NCBI RefSeq assembly: GCF_007923295.1
Contig: NZ_VOIR01000014.1
Location: forward strand, 225,825 to 289,824
From: Agrococcus sediminis
GTDB taxonomy: Bacteria > Actinomycetota > Actinomycetes > Actinomycetales > Microbacteriaceae
DNA: 64,000 nt
Reading direction: 5' to 3'
Under the pieces are notes generated by a model. It saw nothing but the letters and a program-made list of their open reading frames with translations. It was not told where the DNA came from and searched no databases. Numbering within the stretch: position 1 is the first letter of the stretch; the number at the start of each line of letters is the position of its first letter. Made by a program: the position numbers and the translations under genes. Below, piece after piece: positions 32,683-36,542 of the stretch.

Positions 32683-34125
32683 ATGCGCTTCATCGACGAC
32701 CTGCCGGAGCACGACCTCACCTACTCCGACGTGTTCCTGGTCCCCAGCCGCAGCGACGTCGGCTCCCGCATGAGCGTCGACCTCTCGCCCGACGACGGCA
32801 CGGGCGCGTCGCTGCCGATCGTCGCCTCGAACATGAGCTCGGTCACCGGCCCGCGCATGGCGGCGACGCTCGCGCGGCGCGGCGGCATGGCGGTGCTCAC
32901 GCAGGATCCGCCGCTGGAGGAGACGGTCGCGTCGATCGACTGGGTGAAGGCGCAGCCGGTGCGGCTCGAGTCGCCGCACCGGGCGAGCGCCGACGACGTC
33001 GTGCAGGACGTGCTCGAGCGGGTGCCGGCGATGGCCGGGCACGCGGTGGTCGTCGAGGACGCCGACGGCACGCTGCTCGGCGCGATCCCGGCGGAGCGGC
33101 TCGGCTCGGCGCTCGGCGACGCGCGGCTCGGCGACCTGCTGCACTCGCACCTGTCGCACCTGTCGCCCTCGGACGCGGCCGACGGCCGCGCGATGTTCGC
33201 CGCGCTCGAGCGCGAGGGCGTCGACGTCGCGCCGGTCGTCGAGGAGGGCAGGGCGATCGGGATCGCCTCGCGCCTCGGCGCCATCCGCTCGGACATCTAC
33301 CGGCCCGCCCTCGACGCATCCGGCCGCTTGAGCGTCGCCGCCGCGGTCGGCATCAACGGCGACCCGGGAGCGAAGGCGAAGGCGCTCGTCGACGCAGGGG
33401 CAGACGTGATCGTCGTCGACACGGCGCACGGCCACCAGGAGGGGATGCTGCGGGCGCTCGAGGCCGTCCGCGCCGCGGTGGGCGACGACGTGCCGGTCGC
33501 CGCGGGCAACATCGTCTCGTCCGACGGCGTCCGCGACCTCGTCGCGGCGGGCGCGTCGATCCTGAAGGTGGGCGTCGGGCCCGGCGCCATGTGCACGACG
33601 CGCATGATGACGGCCGTCGGGCGGCCGCAGTTCTCGGCGGTGCTCGACACCTCGGCGACGGCCATCGAGCTCGGCGCGCGCGTGTGGGCCGACGGCGGCG
33701 TGCGCTACCCGCGCGACGTGGCGCTCGCGCTCGCGGCCGGCGCCTCGAGCGTCATGATCGGCTCGTGGTTCGCCGGCACGATCGAGGCGCCCGGGAGGCT
33801 GCAGCGCGACGGGCAGGGCCGCCTGTACAAGGAGTCGTGGGGCATGGCCTCGACGCGTGCGGTGCTGGGGCGCTTCGGGCAGCTCGACGCCTACGAGCTC
33901 GCGCGCAAGCGGCTCTTCGCCGAGGGCATCTCGTCGTCGACGATCCTGCTCGACCCGCAGCGGCCGAGCGTCGAGGACCTCGTCGACATGATCACCGCCG
34001 GCGTGCGGTCGTCCTTCACGTACGCGGGGGCCGACACGGTGCCCGCGTTCCGCGAGCGGGCGCGCGTCGGGGTGCAGTCGGCCGCCGGCTACGAGGAGGG
34101 CAAGGCGCTGCCGGTCTCGTGGTGA
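32683..34125 (+). CDS. guaB1: GuaB1-type IMP dehydrogenase-related protein (GMP reductase) with CBS insertion
   Basis: This 480-residue protein of the IMPDH/GMPR family has a TIM barrel interrupted by a CBS pair at about residues 95-205. The catalytic Cys304 lies in VGVGPGAMCTTRMM, preceded by VDTAHGH and followed by DGGVRYPRDVALALAAGAS. GuaB1 is known in mycobacteria as a GMP reductase that converts GMP to IMP in purine salvage, distinct from biosynthetic GuaB. The ATG at 32683 is supported by a -10 six bases upstream. The promoter and leader ORF of the next gene begin within 20 bases of its stop. Confidence 0.92.
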   Translation: MRFIDDLPEHDLTYSDVFLVPSRSDVGSRMSVDLSPDDGTGASLPIVASNMSSVTGPRMAATLARRGGMAVLTQDPPLEETVASIDWVKAQPVRLESPHRASADDVVQDVLERVPAMAGHAVVVEDADGTLLGAIPAERLGSALGDARLGDLLHSHLSHLSPSDAADGRAMFAALEREGVDVAPVVEEGRAIGIASRLGAIRSDIYRPALDASGRLSVAAAVGINGDPGAKAKALVDAGADVIVVDTAHGHQEGMLRALEAVRAAVGDDVPVAAGNIVSSDGVRDLVAAGASILKVGVGPGAMCTTRMMTAVGRPQFSAVLDTSATAIELGARVWADGGVRYPRDVALALAAGASSVMIGSWFAGTIEAPGRLQRDGQGRLYKESWGMASTRAVLGRFGQLDAYELARKRLFAEGISSSTILLDPQRPSVEDLVDMITAGVRSSFTYAGADTVPAFRERARVGVQSAAGYEEGKALPVSW

Positions 34126-34132
34126 GGCCGGG

Positions 34133-34138
34133 TAGGAT
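34133..34138 (+). promoter_or_regulatory. -10 element for the leader ORF and CNNM operon
   Basis: TAGGAT, six bases, then GTG at 34145. The mRNA would begin at the first codon of the leader ORF. Confidence 0.55.
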
Positions 34139-34144
34139 GCCCGG

Positions 34145-34189
34145 GTGAACGACGACAGTCATAGTCCCTCGCCGGACCCGATCCGCTGA
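34145..34189 (+). CDS. 14-codon leaderless Asp/Pro-rich leader peptide ORF
   Basis: GTG at 34145 opens a 14-codon ORF encoding MNDDSHSPSPDPIR. The TGA at 34187-34189 overlaps the ATG of the CNNM gene (TGATG). The GTG sits seven bases after the end of a TAGGAT -10, so it is probably the mRNA 5' end. The CNNM gene has no Shine-Dalgarno of its own, so its translation is likely coupled to this ORF. The peptide alternates Asp/Ser with Pro, resembling the EPDPTP stretch of enterobacterial MgtL, which destabilises ribosomes at low Mg2+. Three A/T-ending codons (AGT, CAT, AGT) are unusual for this genome. The regulatory role is inference. Confidence 0.6.
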   Translation: MNDDSHSPSPDPIR

Positions 34190-35502
34190 TGGATGCGATC
34201 CTCATCTCCATCGGCGTGGTGCTCACGATCGGGACCGGCCTCTTCGTGGCAAGCGAGTTCGCGCTCGTCAACCTCGACCGCTCCGAGCTCGAGGCGCGCC
34301 GCGCCCGCGGCGAGGGCCGGCTCGAGGGCACCATCAAGGCGCTGCGCCAGACGTCCACGCACCTCTCGAGCGCGCAGCTGGGCATCACGCTCACGACGCT
34401 GCTCACCGGCTACACGATGGAGCCGGCGATCTCGCGCCAGCTCACGCCCGTGCTGGTCTCGTGGGGGCTCGACGAGGGCTTCGCGGGGCCCCTCGCGAGC
34501 GTGATCGCCATGACCGGGGCCACGGTGCTCTCGATGATCGTCGGCGAGCTCGTGCCCAAGAACTTCGCGCTCGCGCGGCCGCTCGGCACCGCGATCGCCG
34601 TCACGCCCTTCCAGCGCGCCTTCACCGCGATCTTCAAGCCGGCCGTGCTGGCGCTCAACGGCTCCGCCAACGGCATCCTGCGCTCCATCGGCCTCGAGCC
34701 GAAGGAGGAGCTCTCGGGCGCCCGCACCGCCGAGGAGCTCTCGACGCTCGTGCGGCGCAGCGCCATGGAGGGCGCGCTCGACGCCGGGGCGGCCACGCTG
34801 CTCTCCCGCACGCTCCGCTTCTCCGAGCTGAGCGCCGGCGACGTCATGACGCCGCGCCCGCGCGTGCAGGCGATCGAGCGCTCCGAGTCGGTGGCCGACC
34901 TCGTCGCCCTCGCGCACGCGACCGGGCTGTCCCGGTTCCCCGTCATCGACGGCGACCTCGACGAGGTGCAGGGCATCGCCCACATCAAGCAGGCGATCGC
35001 CGTGCCGCGCGATCGCCGCGCCGACGTGCCGGTCGCCGCGATCGCCGAGGAGCCGCACCGCGTGCCGGAGTCGCTGCACCTCGATGCGCTGCTGTCGGAC
35101 CTCAAGGAGCGCGGCTACCAGATGGCGATCATCGTCGACGAGTACGGCGGCACCGCCGGCATCGCGACCCTCGAGGACCTCATCGAGGAGGTCGTCGGCG
35201 AGGTGGCCGACGAGCACGACCGCCACCTCGTCGAGGTCGTGCAGGGCCCCGGATGGGTGACGTTCCCGGGCTCGCTGCGCCCCGACGAGCTGCTCGAGCG
35301 CACGCGCGTCGCCGTGCCGCCCGACGGCCCCTACGAGACGATCGGCGGCTTCATCATGGCCGAGCTGGGCTCGCTGCCCGCCGTCGGCGACACGGTCGAC
35401 GTCGAGGGCGGCAGCCTGCGCGTCGAGCGCGTCGACGGCCGCCGCGTCGACCGCGTGCGGTTCACCGCGAGGCCCACCGCGACCGAGGAGGGGCACCGAT
35501 GA
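34189..35502 (+). CDS. CNNM/CorC (HCC)-family membrane protein, Mg2+ (or Co2+) transport
   Basis: This 437-residue member of the CNNM/CorB/HlyC-CorC family has an N-terminal DUF21 transmembrane domain (about 1-140, three to four helices). The [13 protein letters not shown] signature is at about 118-130. A cytosolic pair of CBS domains follows (about 215-335, including [25 protein letters not shown]). The C-terminal CorC_HlyC domain begins near [14 protein letters not shown]. Characterised relatives export or protect against excess Mg2+, or affect Co2+ resistance. Translation seems coupled to the preceding leader ORF (TGATG). It overlaps the second CNNM gene by four bases. Confidence 0.9.
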
Positions 35503-36542
35503 GCGAGGACTGGCTGGGCATCCTCTGGCTCGTGATCCTGCTGGTCGCGAACGCCTTCTTCGTCGGCGCCGAGTTCGCCGTCATCTCGGCGCGGCGCAGC
35601 CAGATCGAGCCGCTCGCCGACCGCGGCAACCGCGCCGCGAAGCTCGCGCTGTGGGCGATGGAGCACGTCTCGCTCATGCTGGCGATGTGCCAGCTCGGCA
35701 TCACGATCTGCTCGCTGCTCATCCTCAACGTCTCCGAGCCGGCGATCCACCACCTGCTCGAGGGGCCGCTCGCGTTCACGGGCCTCGCGCCCGAGGTCGT
35801 GTCGGTCGTGGCGTTCGTGATCGCGCTGCTGCTCGTCACGTACCTGCACGTCGTGCTCGGCGAGATGGTGCCGAAGAACGCCGCGTTCTCGGTGCCCGAC
35901 CGCGCGGTGCTGCTGCTCGCCCCGCCGCTCGTGCTCATCTCGCGCGTGTTCAAGCCCGTCATCTGGGTGATGAACGCGGTCGCGAACGGCATCCTGCGGC
36001 TCTTCCGCGTCGAGCCGGTCGACGAGGCGTCGAGCACCTTCACGATCGACGAGGTCGAGACGATCGTCGAGACCTCGAAGCGCGAGGGGCTGCTGTTCGA
36101 CCCGACGGGCGCCATCTCGCGCACGTTCGAGTTCACCGAGCGCCGGGTGCGCGACGTGGCGCTGCCGCTCGACGAGATCGTCACGCTGCCCGCGGGCGCG
36201 ACGCCCGGCGACGTCGAGGCGGCCGTGCGCGAGCGCGGCTTCTCGCGCTACGTGATCTCCGACGCCGAGGGCCACCCGACGGGCTACGTGCACATCAAGG
36301 ACGTGCTGGGCGCCGACGACGTGCAGGCCGACGAGCCCGTGCCGGCCAAGCGCATCCGCCAGCTCGCCTCGATCTACGAGGAGTCCGACGTCGAGGACGC
36401 GCTCGCGATCATGCGCTCGACGGGCGCGCACATCGCGCGGTCGTTCGACGCGGAGGGCGCGACGACCGGCCTGCTGTTCCTCGAGGACATCATCGAGGAG
36501 CTCGTCGGCGAGGTCCGCGACGCCACGAGGAGGCTCTTCTGA
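35499..36542 (+). CDS. Second CNNM/CorC-family membrane protein, without CorC_HlyC tail
   Basis: This 347-residue paralog has DUF21 (about 1-150) with GEMVPKNAAFSVPD. Two CBS domains follow (about 205-347), ending in TGLLFLEDIIEELVGEV. The C-terminal CorC_HlyC domain present in its partner is missing, so the two may work as a heteromeric transporter. The ATGA overlap (35499-35502) makes the pair co-translated. The gene ends in AGGAGG-containing sequence that serves as the Shine-Dalgarno of the following CTG-start gene. Confidence 0.9.
   Translation: MSEDWLGILWLVILLVANAFFVGAEFAVISARRSQIEPLADRGNRAAKLALWAMEHVSLMLAMCQLGITICSLLILNVSEPAIHHLLEGPLAFTGLAPEVVSVVAFVIALLLVTYLHVVLGEMVPKNAAFSVPDRAVLLLAPPLVLISRVFKPVIWVMNAVANGILRLFRVEPVDEASSTFTIDEVETIVETSKREGLLFDPTGAISRTFEFTERRVRDVALPLDEIVTLPAGATPGDVEAAVRERGFSRYVISDAEGHPTGYVHIKDVLGADDVQADEPVPAKRIRQLASIYEESDVEDALAIMRSTGAHIARSFDAEGATTGLLFLEDIIEELVGEVRDATRRLF

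Follow-up and report, generated by a model that had tools for sequence, protein, structure and literature searches.

The present study asks whether a short ORF rich in Asp and Pro, lying directly ahead of a probable Mg2+-exporter gene in the 64,000-nucleotide stretch of Agrococcus sediminis DNA analyzed here (the window), could meter production of that exporter according to Mg2+. Patterns at the locus and its relatives are consistent with this role, and we place a probability of roughly 0.55 on the reading that the leader is leaderless and coupled, and that ribosomes destabilized on its Asp/Pro stretch at low Mg2+ make less CNNM protein. The transcript is predicted to start at the leader start codon in the window's genus, or a few bases before it in other genera, so that ribosomes would initiate on the leader in leaderless fashion. 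The peptide opens with acidic residues and Pro (MDDPPS, or VNDDxSHSPxPEP in the window's genus), and this start, written partly in rare codons, would destabilize or stall the ribosome while the nascent chain is still young, and more strongly at low Mg2+. A ribosome completing the leader would end on the CNNM start codon and re-initiate, and one that had dropped off would not, so that exporter synthesis would rise with Mg2+ and fall when Mg2+ is scarce. We infer the sensing step by analogy with the MgtL leader and the N-terminus of E. coli CorC.

Table 1. Features of the leader locus and its neighbors (window coordinates)
Feature	Position	Strand	Support
guaB1-like upstream gene (IMPDH/GMP reductase family)	32683..34125	+	PF00478 E 4.6e-95
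TAGGAT, predicted -10 element	34133..34138	+	TANNAT in 24/24 genus orthologues
Spacer of six bases, -10 to GTG	34139-34144		
Putative leaderless leader ORF, GTG start, VNDDSHSPSPDPIR	34145..34189	+	leader in 24/24 genus genomes
Asn-Asp-Asp codons, acidic leader-peptide start	34148..34156	+	MDD/MDE in most other family leaders
CATAGTCC, Pro together with rare codons for His and Ser	34160..34167	+	in 24/24 genus leaders
TGATG stop/start overlap (translational coupling)	34187..34191	+	
CNNM/CorB-type gene, probable Mg2+ exporter	34189..35502	+	CNNM, CBS and CorC_HlyC domains
Second CNNM and CBS gene	35499..36542	+	ATGA overlap with first CNNM gene

The first-pass annotation had described a TAGGAT box, six bases, a 14-codon GTG ORF and a TGA overlapping the ATG of a CNNM/CorC Mg2+-transport-family gene, and each element is where it was placed. 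The GTG lies at 34145 and the stop at 34187-34189, sharing one A with the CNNM ATG (34189-34191), and seven bases separate the end of the guaB1-like gene from the -10 box. The family assignment is borne out by domain matches (PF01595, 3.6e-36; PF00571, 2.2e-9; PF03471, 1.9e-17), and the solved chains nearest to the protein include CorC 4hg0 and the CBS “hemolysins” 7m1t/7m1u, so named; the product probably exports Mg2+. Because of their ATGA overlap, the two CNNM genes belong to the same operon. A search of positions 33900-34400 returned no Rfam match, whether to the M-box or to another riboswitch, up to E 1, which rules out a known riboswitch there. In the genome of the window, the pattern written for the leader element has a single match.

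By eye, there was no Shine-Dalgarno-like stretch in the 22 bases 5′ of the CNNM ATG in the window, and no -35 box was evident upstream of TAGGAT. The AGGA within TAGGAT could instead be a Shine-Dalgarno sequence, at 7-nt spacing, on a transcript reading through from guaB1, but the -10 reading is favored because nine of the 24 genus members have TAGAAT, TACGAT, TACAAT, TAAGAT or TATGAT in its place while TANNAT holds in all 24. The distance from box to start codon is 6–7 nt in all genus leaders; for the 82 family leaders it ranges from 6 to 11 nt and is mostly 9 or 10 nt (73 leaders), so that genus and family leaders alike have a -10 box shortly 5′ of the start with no room for a Shine-Dalgarno sequence. 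Among the 64 leaders that were folded (those of 85 with at least 60 nt from leader start to CNNM start), the first 15 nt were more open than shuffles in 50 (p 5.5e-5), which would suit a leaderless start, and part of the rare-codon preference may serve this open 5′ end. The suggestion that the CNNM gene lacks a Shine-Dalgarno sequence of its own applies to the window's genus but not to many relatives outside it, where one is seen by eye.

Conservation of the leader was complete in the genus. All 24 genomes searched, the window's own included, had a CNNM orthologue, and every one of these was preceded by TANNAT, 6–7 nt and a GTG ORF ending on the CNNM start. Eighteen leaders were of the type VNDDxSHSPxPEP, to which the window leader belongs without the x, three were VSDEHHSPWG, two VNDCHHSPWP and one VNDDDHSPSSSTA. 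The stretch CATAGTCC persists despite the rarity of its CAT and AGT codons; in the CNNM genes of the genus (n=24) Ser is written AGT in 1.0% of cases and His is written CAT in 9.1%, and the three codons that had been singled out (AGT, CAT, AGT) are indeed T-ending exceptions. A search of 150 family genomes gave 146 with a match at E <= 1e-100, and 87 family loci outside the genus were read (27 from that search and 60 further fetched, a few genomes contributing two). By a fixed rule, 82 of the 87 have a leader, 11–53 codons long; 73 start MDDPP and the other nine MDEPP, MDHPP, MDDHH, MDDPG, MDDPH, VDDPP or MDGSD. The five without one by this rule are L059, L061, L109, L113 and L114, among which L061 reads MDDPPS with TANNNT absent at the allowed distance, and L113 has no leader and a CNNM gene that itself looks leaderless (by eye). 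The first-pass annotation had held that a leader ORF not conserved in relatives would refute its reading; on the contrary, the leader is kept well beyond the genus (24/24; 82/87), together with its acidic/Pro beginning and the overlap of its stop with the CNNM start. What had been described as an Asp/Pro pattern survives as a conserved acidic/Pro start, but VNDDSHSPSPDP is the genus form, and elsewhere in the family the start is mostly MDDPPS.

The element is also specific to CNNM genes. The pattern TANNNT-N6..11-ATGGAYGAYCCNCC, which is exact and so passes over diverged leaders, those of the window's genus among them, gave 40 matches, with one or more in 37 of 60 family genomes, against 1 for a reversed-pattern control. 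All 40 of these promoter-plus-ATG-Asp-Asp-Pro-Pro matches lie at the 5′ end of a CNNM gene, and 38 are separate leaders ahead of one (29 of the 30 loci read from pattern matches, the rest of the 38 standing under other locus ids); of the second match in genome G058 only the position is known, 98 nt ahead of a CNNM match. In every one of 109 leaders the stop lies in the interval -20..+16 around the point where the CNNM match begins, as opposed to 7 and 6 of 109 for the other two frames, and the frequent overlaps are TGATG, ATGA or a TGA within the first CNNM codons. These 109 comprise 85 family and class leaders and 24 from the genus, leaving out L150, L152 and L153 (the same places as L068, L078 and L089), L155 (another family, leader MDDHPSS) and L173 (a chance match to the rule). 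The leader element is far from chance, because the pattern found 40 matches against 1, all 109 stops fall at the CNNM start and 82 of 87 family loci have a leader. That a fixed programmed frameshift joins the leader to CNNM is ruled out, since leaders occur in the +1 or +2 frame relative to CNNM; in L141 the leader is in frame with CNNM with a stop between. The window's genome also has CorA and a third CNNM gene, both without such a leader, and no MgtE match, so the leader is not common to the genome's other Mg2+ genes. That third CNNM gene (L284, contig C13), with no leader ORF, comes after an ORF resembling YbeY by eye, an arrangement reminiscent of E. coli ybeY-ybeX.

One pattern match, in genome G063 (L285, G063:C3:394300-394800; also L137), has MDDPPS fused in frame to CNNM (MDDPPSAELLLLIAGLLLTVG...), with TAGAAT, ten bases and then the CNNM protein's own MDDPPS start. 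Since the leader rule requires a stop codon inside the stretch, this start cannot count among the 109. Judged from the reading frame, the leader start has here been turned into the exporter's own N-terminus, and coupling through a separate ORF would be dispensable in this lineage. MDDPPS thereby stands at the position of the acidic start of CorC, which suggests that the functional core is the peptide and not a separate ORF.

An alternative explanation could be coupling without sensing, in which the leader only feeds ribosomes to a poorly initiating CNNM gene and DDPP sets a constant low yield. We regard this as unlikely. Leaderless coupled small ORFs are described as common in mycobacteria, one with a non-conserved peptide (PMC4633059), and the 109 of 109 leaders ending at the CNNM start are what such delivery would predict, but it would not account for the amino-acid conservation of DDPP or the restriction to CNNM genes, both of which exceed what delivery needs, nor for G063, which keeps MDDPPS on CNNM itself where nothing is delivered. 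As to how coupling would work, a comparison for leader structure that masks the CNNM start put 43 of 64 leaders below dinucleotide shuffles (p 0.026) and 34 of 64 below synonymous permutations (p 0.38). The case for a hairpin that masks the Shine-Dalgarno sequence and hides the CNNM start is weak, and because masking is not well supported, coupling is more likely to proceed by re-initiation at the overlap.

The stability of 70S ribosomes depends on Mg2+. Leaderless initiation could therefore itself be the Mg2+ sensor, acting through the intact 70S ribosomes that leaderless mRNA is reported to bind (PMC5124965, PMC9031893), with the peptide secondary. The CNNM gene itself looks leaderless in L113, L157, L162 and the fused G063, in keeping with this, but the peptide start is conserved, and the leaders of family f17 and those ahead of a CNNM paralogue (L026, L028-L030) have Shine-Dalgarno-like stretches and no nearby -10 box; we consider this explanation distinctly unlikely.

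In favor of destabilization by the peptide, the reading that we prefer, at codons 2–5 there were 5595 synonymous differing pairs against 903 that were not, compared with 1257 and 8781 at codons 7–9, in both cases counting pairs that share ancestry and are not independent. Changes at codons 2–5 being mostly synonymous, it is the peptide that is conserved. Codon choice is nevertheless biased. At codon 4, Pro (n=83) is written CCT 60 times, CCC 21 times and CCG twice, as against 2.7%, 40% and 55% in CNNM genes (n=26), giving CCY in 81 of 83 (p 2e-27). This could indicate a codon-specific mechanism, in which CCU and CCC need m1G37 tRNA made by the Mg2+-dependent TrmD and low Mg2+ stalls ribosomes at Pro4/Pro5; mgtL uses CC[C/U] and its response needs TrmD (PMC6335274). 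Codon 5, however, is CCG in 19 of 81, the Ser, His and Arg codons of the leaders are likewise rare (TCT, CAT, AGA), so that the bias is not special to Pro, and Pro in the window leader is always written CCC or CCG, the two codons that are common for it. This mechanism we judge very unlikely. Beyond codon 7 the proportion of A/T third bases is 0.25–0.29, which may be mere absence of codon bias.

It is highly improbable that the 5′ bases act as a nucleotide element, whether operator, anti-Shine-Dalgarno sequence or RNA structure, with the ORF incidental. Such an element could explain the rare codons, the constancy of CATAGTCC in the 24 genus leaders and the anti-Shine-Dalgarno-like CCTCC, but not the mostly synonymous changes at codons 2–5, the position of DPPS farther from the start in Leucobacter and in family f25, or the fusion in G063, which keeps the sequence as coding; the folding signal is weak, and the Rfam search described above found nothing at 33900-34400. 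An anti-Shine-Dalgarno role for CCTCC was considered and is not separable from codon choice in the present data. Direct binding of a divalent metal by an Asp/His-rich nascent peptide, to which DDxSHS in the genus and GHSPSPDSE-like repeats ahead of the CNNM paralogue might point, is scarcely credible when His is absent altogether from 17 of 82 family leaders and the H.P motif from 42 of 85. The remaining 43 of 85 do have H-x-P (x mostly R, K, S, H or M), often as CAT AGA CCC.

The leader extends beyond the family in diverged form. A search across the class gave matches at E <= 1e-70 in 78 of 118 genomes, which include some members of the family, and of 80 named loci (mostly Microbacteriaceae) 46 start [MV]D[DE]PP, 14 others have at least two acidic residues at positions 2–5, 11 have other kinds of ORF and nine no ORF with a -10 box, although one of these nine (L226) does read MDDPPS. 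Leaders outside the family were partly read by eye, those of L159, L161, L163, L167, L170 and L176 being retranslated by script. The acidic start persists while the rest changes, as in MDSDSRRPSDPPS in Leucobacter, MEPDKHKN in Aquiluna, MDSDHPHP in Auritidibacter and MDDSCSHSPEP in Gulosibacter. Other class leaders are MDDPPSHMPWPL (Pseudarthrobacter), MDDSPSHKPWP (Glycomyces), MSTPPDDPPSRR and VSCAPDEPPSRP (f25), MNDSGDTGCSPN behind a Shine-Dalgarno sequence (f17), MEPPSTG and MGEPPSTR (f18), MDESQSPR (f23) and, at L170, MPSPDIPSHSP, which carries CCCAGTCATAGTCC as genus leaders do. Cellulomonas and its relatives have Ser-rich leaders with no early acidic residues (MSSSSRCRRPSRAD), and the Terrabacter leader is MTSLRDQ. 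By eye, no leader was seen at the f6 loci L169, L171, L175 and L177, nor at the f4 loci L157 and L162, where the CNNM gene itself looks leaderless. From these readings, other Actinomycetes appear to have diverged leaders, and several groups have no leader or no acidic start. Where the leader is missing (L113, L157, L162 and L243), a -10-like box stands about 9–11 bases before the CNNM ATG, and leaderless initiation seems to be kept even there. The rare AGT Ser codon recurs across families (TGTAGTCC, CCCAGTACC, TCAAGT, CAAAGTCC), in f17, f18, f19, f23 and Cellulomonas-type loci, even without an acidic start.

Several known systems share parts with this leader. MgtL, ahead of mgtA in E. coli and Salmonella, is likewise a short ORF before a Mg2+-transport gene, with acidic and Pro residues at its N-terminus (EPDP) and CC[C/U] Pro codons (PMC11282234, PMC6335274); acidic residues early in a nascent chain can stall or dissociate ribosomes, notably on this EPDP at low Mg2+, an effect that EttA counters (PMC11282234). 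The CNNM leaders too are short, have an acidic/Pro N-terminus and precede a Mg2+-transport-type gene, but MgtL acts on an importer, by way of Rho and a conformational switch, whereas the CNNM leader has an exporter-type gene, a direct stop/start overlap, a leaderless start and the opposite expected sign. None of the 109 loci has a stretch between ORF and CNNM gene that could hold a leader RNA with alternative stems or a Rho site, since the leader ORF ends at the CNNM start in every case, and the CNNM leader is therefore not classed as MgtL. In mgtQ, before mgtB in Salmonella, acidic residues of a short ORF also affect the next Mg2+ transporter, Asp2 and Glu5 being needed for MgtB production (PMC8092293), but there aborted translation frees the mgtB site, whereas completion of the CNNM leader is expected to be necessary. 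CorC (YbeX) and YoaL-yoaE/mgpA resemble the present case in involving Mg2+-efflux-associated genes. PMC12421838 reports that corC expression is up at 10 mM Mg2+, cites an N-terminal destabilizing sequence in CorC, suggests for Salmonella and E. coli that an acidic N-terminus limits CorC at low Mg2+, and notes that MgpA is translated less when YoaL lacks its start codon. The YoaL leader overlaps yoaE/mgpA and has a putative signal (PMC12421838), and the destabilizing stretch of CorC, unlike the leader, belongs to the CorC protein, as does the acidic MDDPPS to its protein in G063. E. coli CorC (L178, ybeX) begins MSDDNSHSSD and leaders L007, L008 and L017 begin VNDDNSHSP, with DDNSHS identical and at the same distance from the start; the match was noticed after the fact and is offered as a lead. 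Mycobacterial leaderless coupled uORFs also have a -10 box by the start codon and end on the next start, but are Cys-rich (attenuation candidates) or have non-conserved peptides, with no Mg2+ gene named in the available part of the source (PMC4633059). The M-box riboswitch with uORFs in M. tuberculosis similarly joins Mg2+ and uORFs in an actinomycete (PMC12810186), a kind of element for which the window locus has no match.

The first-pass annotation had thought a leaderless, coupled version of this logic new. In line with that view, no paper listed in searches of the open-access literature (subscription papers and preprints lay outside the scope) was recognized as describing an Asp/Pro leader before CNNM genes in Actinomycetota, but CorC is a suggested precedent for part of the principle (PMC12421838). 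The kinds of parts are known and the combination appears to be new. Somewhat short of an even chance, in our estimation, is the broader proposal that a large part of the Actinomycetes meters Mg2+ export by a leaderless Asp/Asp-Pro-Pro or DDxSHSP leader with slow codons, whose completion, and with it coupled CNNM synthesis, would increase with Mg2+, the start having moved onto the exporter in one lineage and E. coli CorC having come independently to almost the same start (DDNSHS). If Mg2+ control is true, there are two key implications. First is that ribosome destabilization by acidic nascent chains would be a general, repeatedly evolved Mg2+ gauge. Secondly, on exporters the gauge would run in the reverse direction, and would do so in bacteria where leaderless messages abound. 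Being short and common to many genera, the leader is directly testable, and it is a clean case for separating three proposed Mg2+ inputs, namely acidic-chain destabilization, TrmD-dependent Pro codons and 70S-dependent leaderless starts.

A further arrangement occurs ahead of a CNNM paralogue in four members of the genus (L026, L028, L029 and L030), where a leader ORF led by a Shine-Dalgarno sequence spans about -165 to -17 relative to the start of the CNNM match and encodes four tandem GHSPSPDSE-like units (MSHRSPASDSECHSPSPDSEGHSPDSDSEGHRPS...). In a fifth paralogue (L027) the leader is shorter than in these four.
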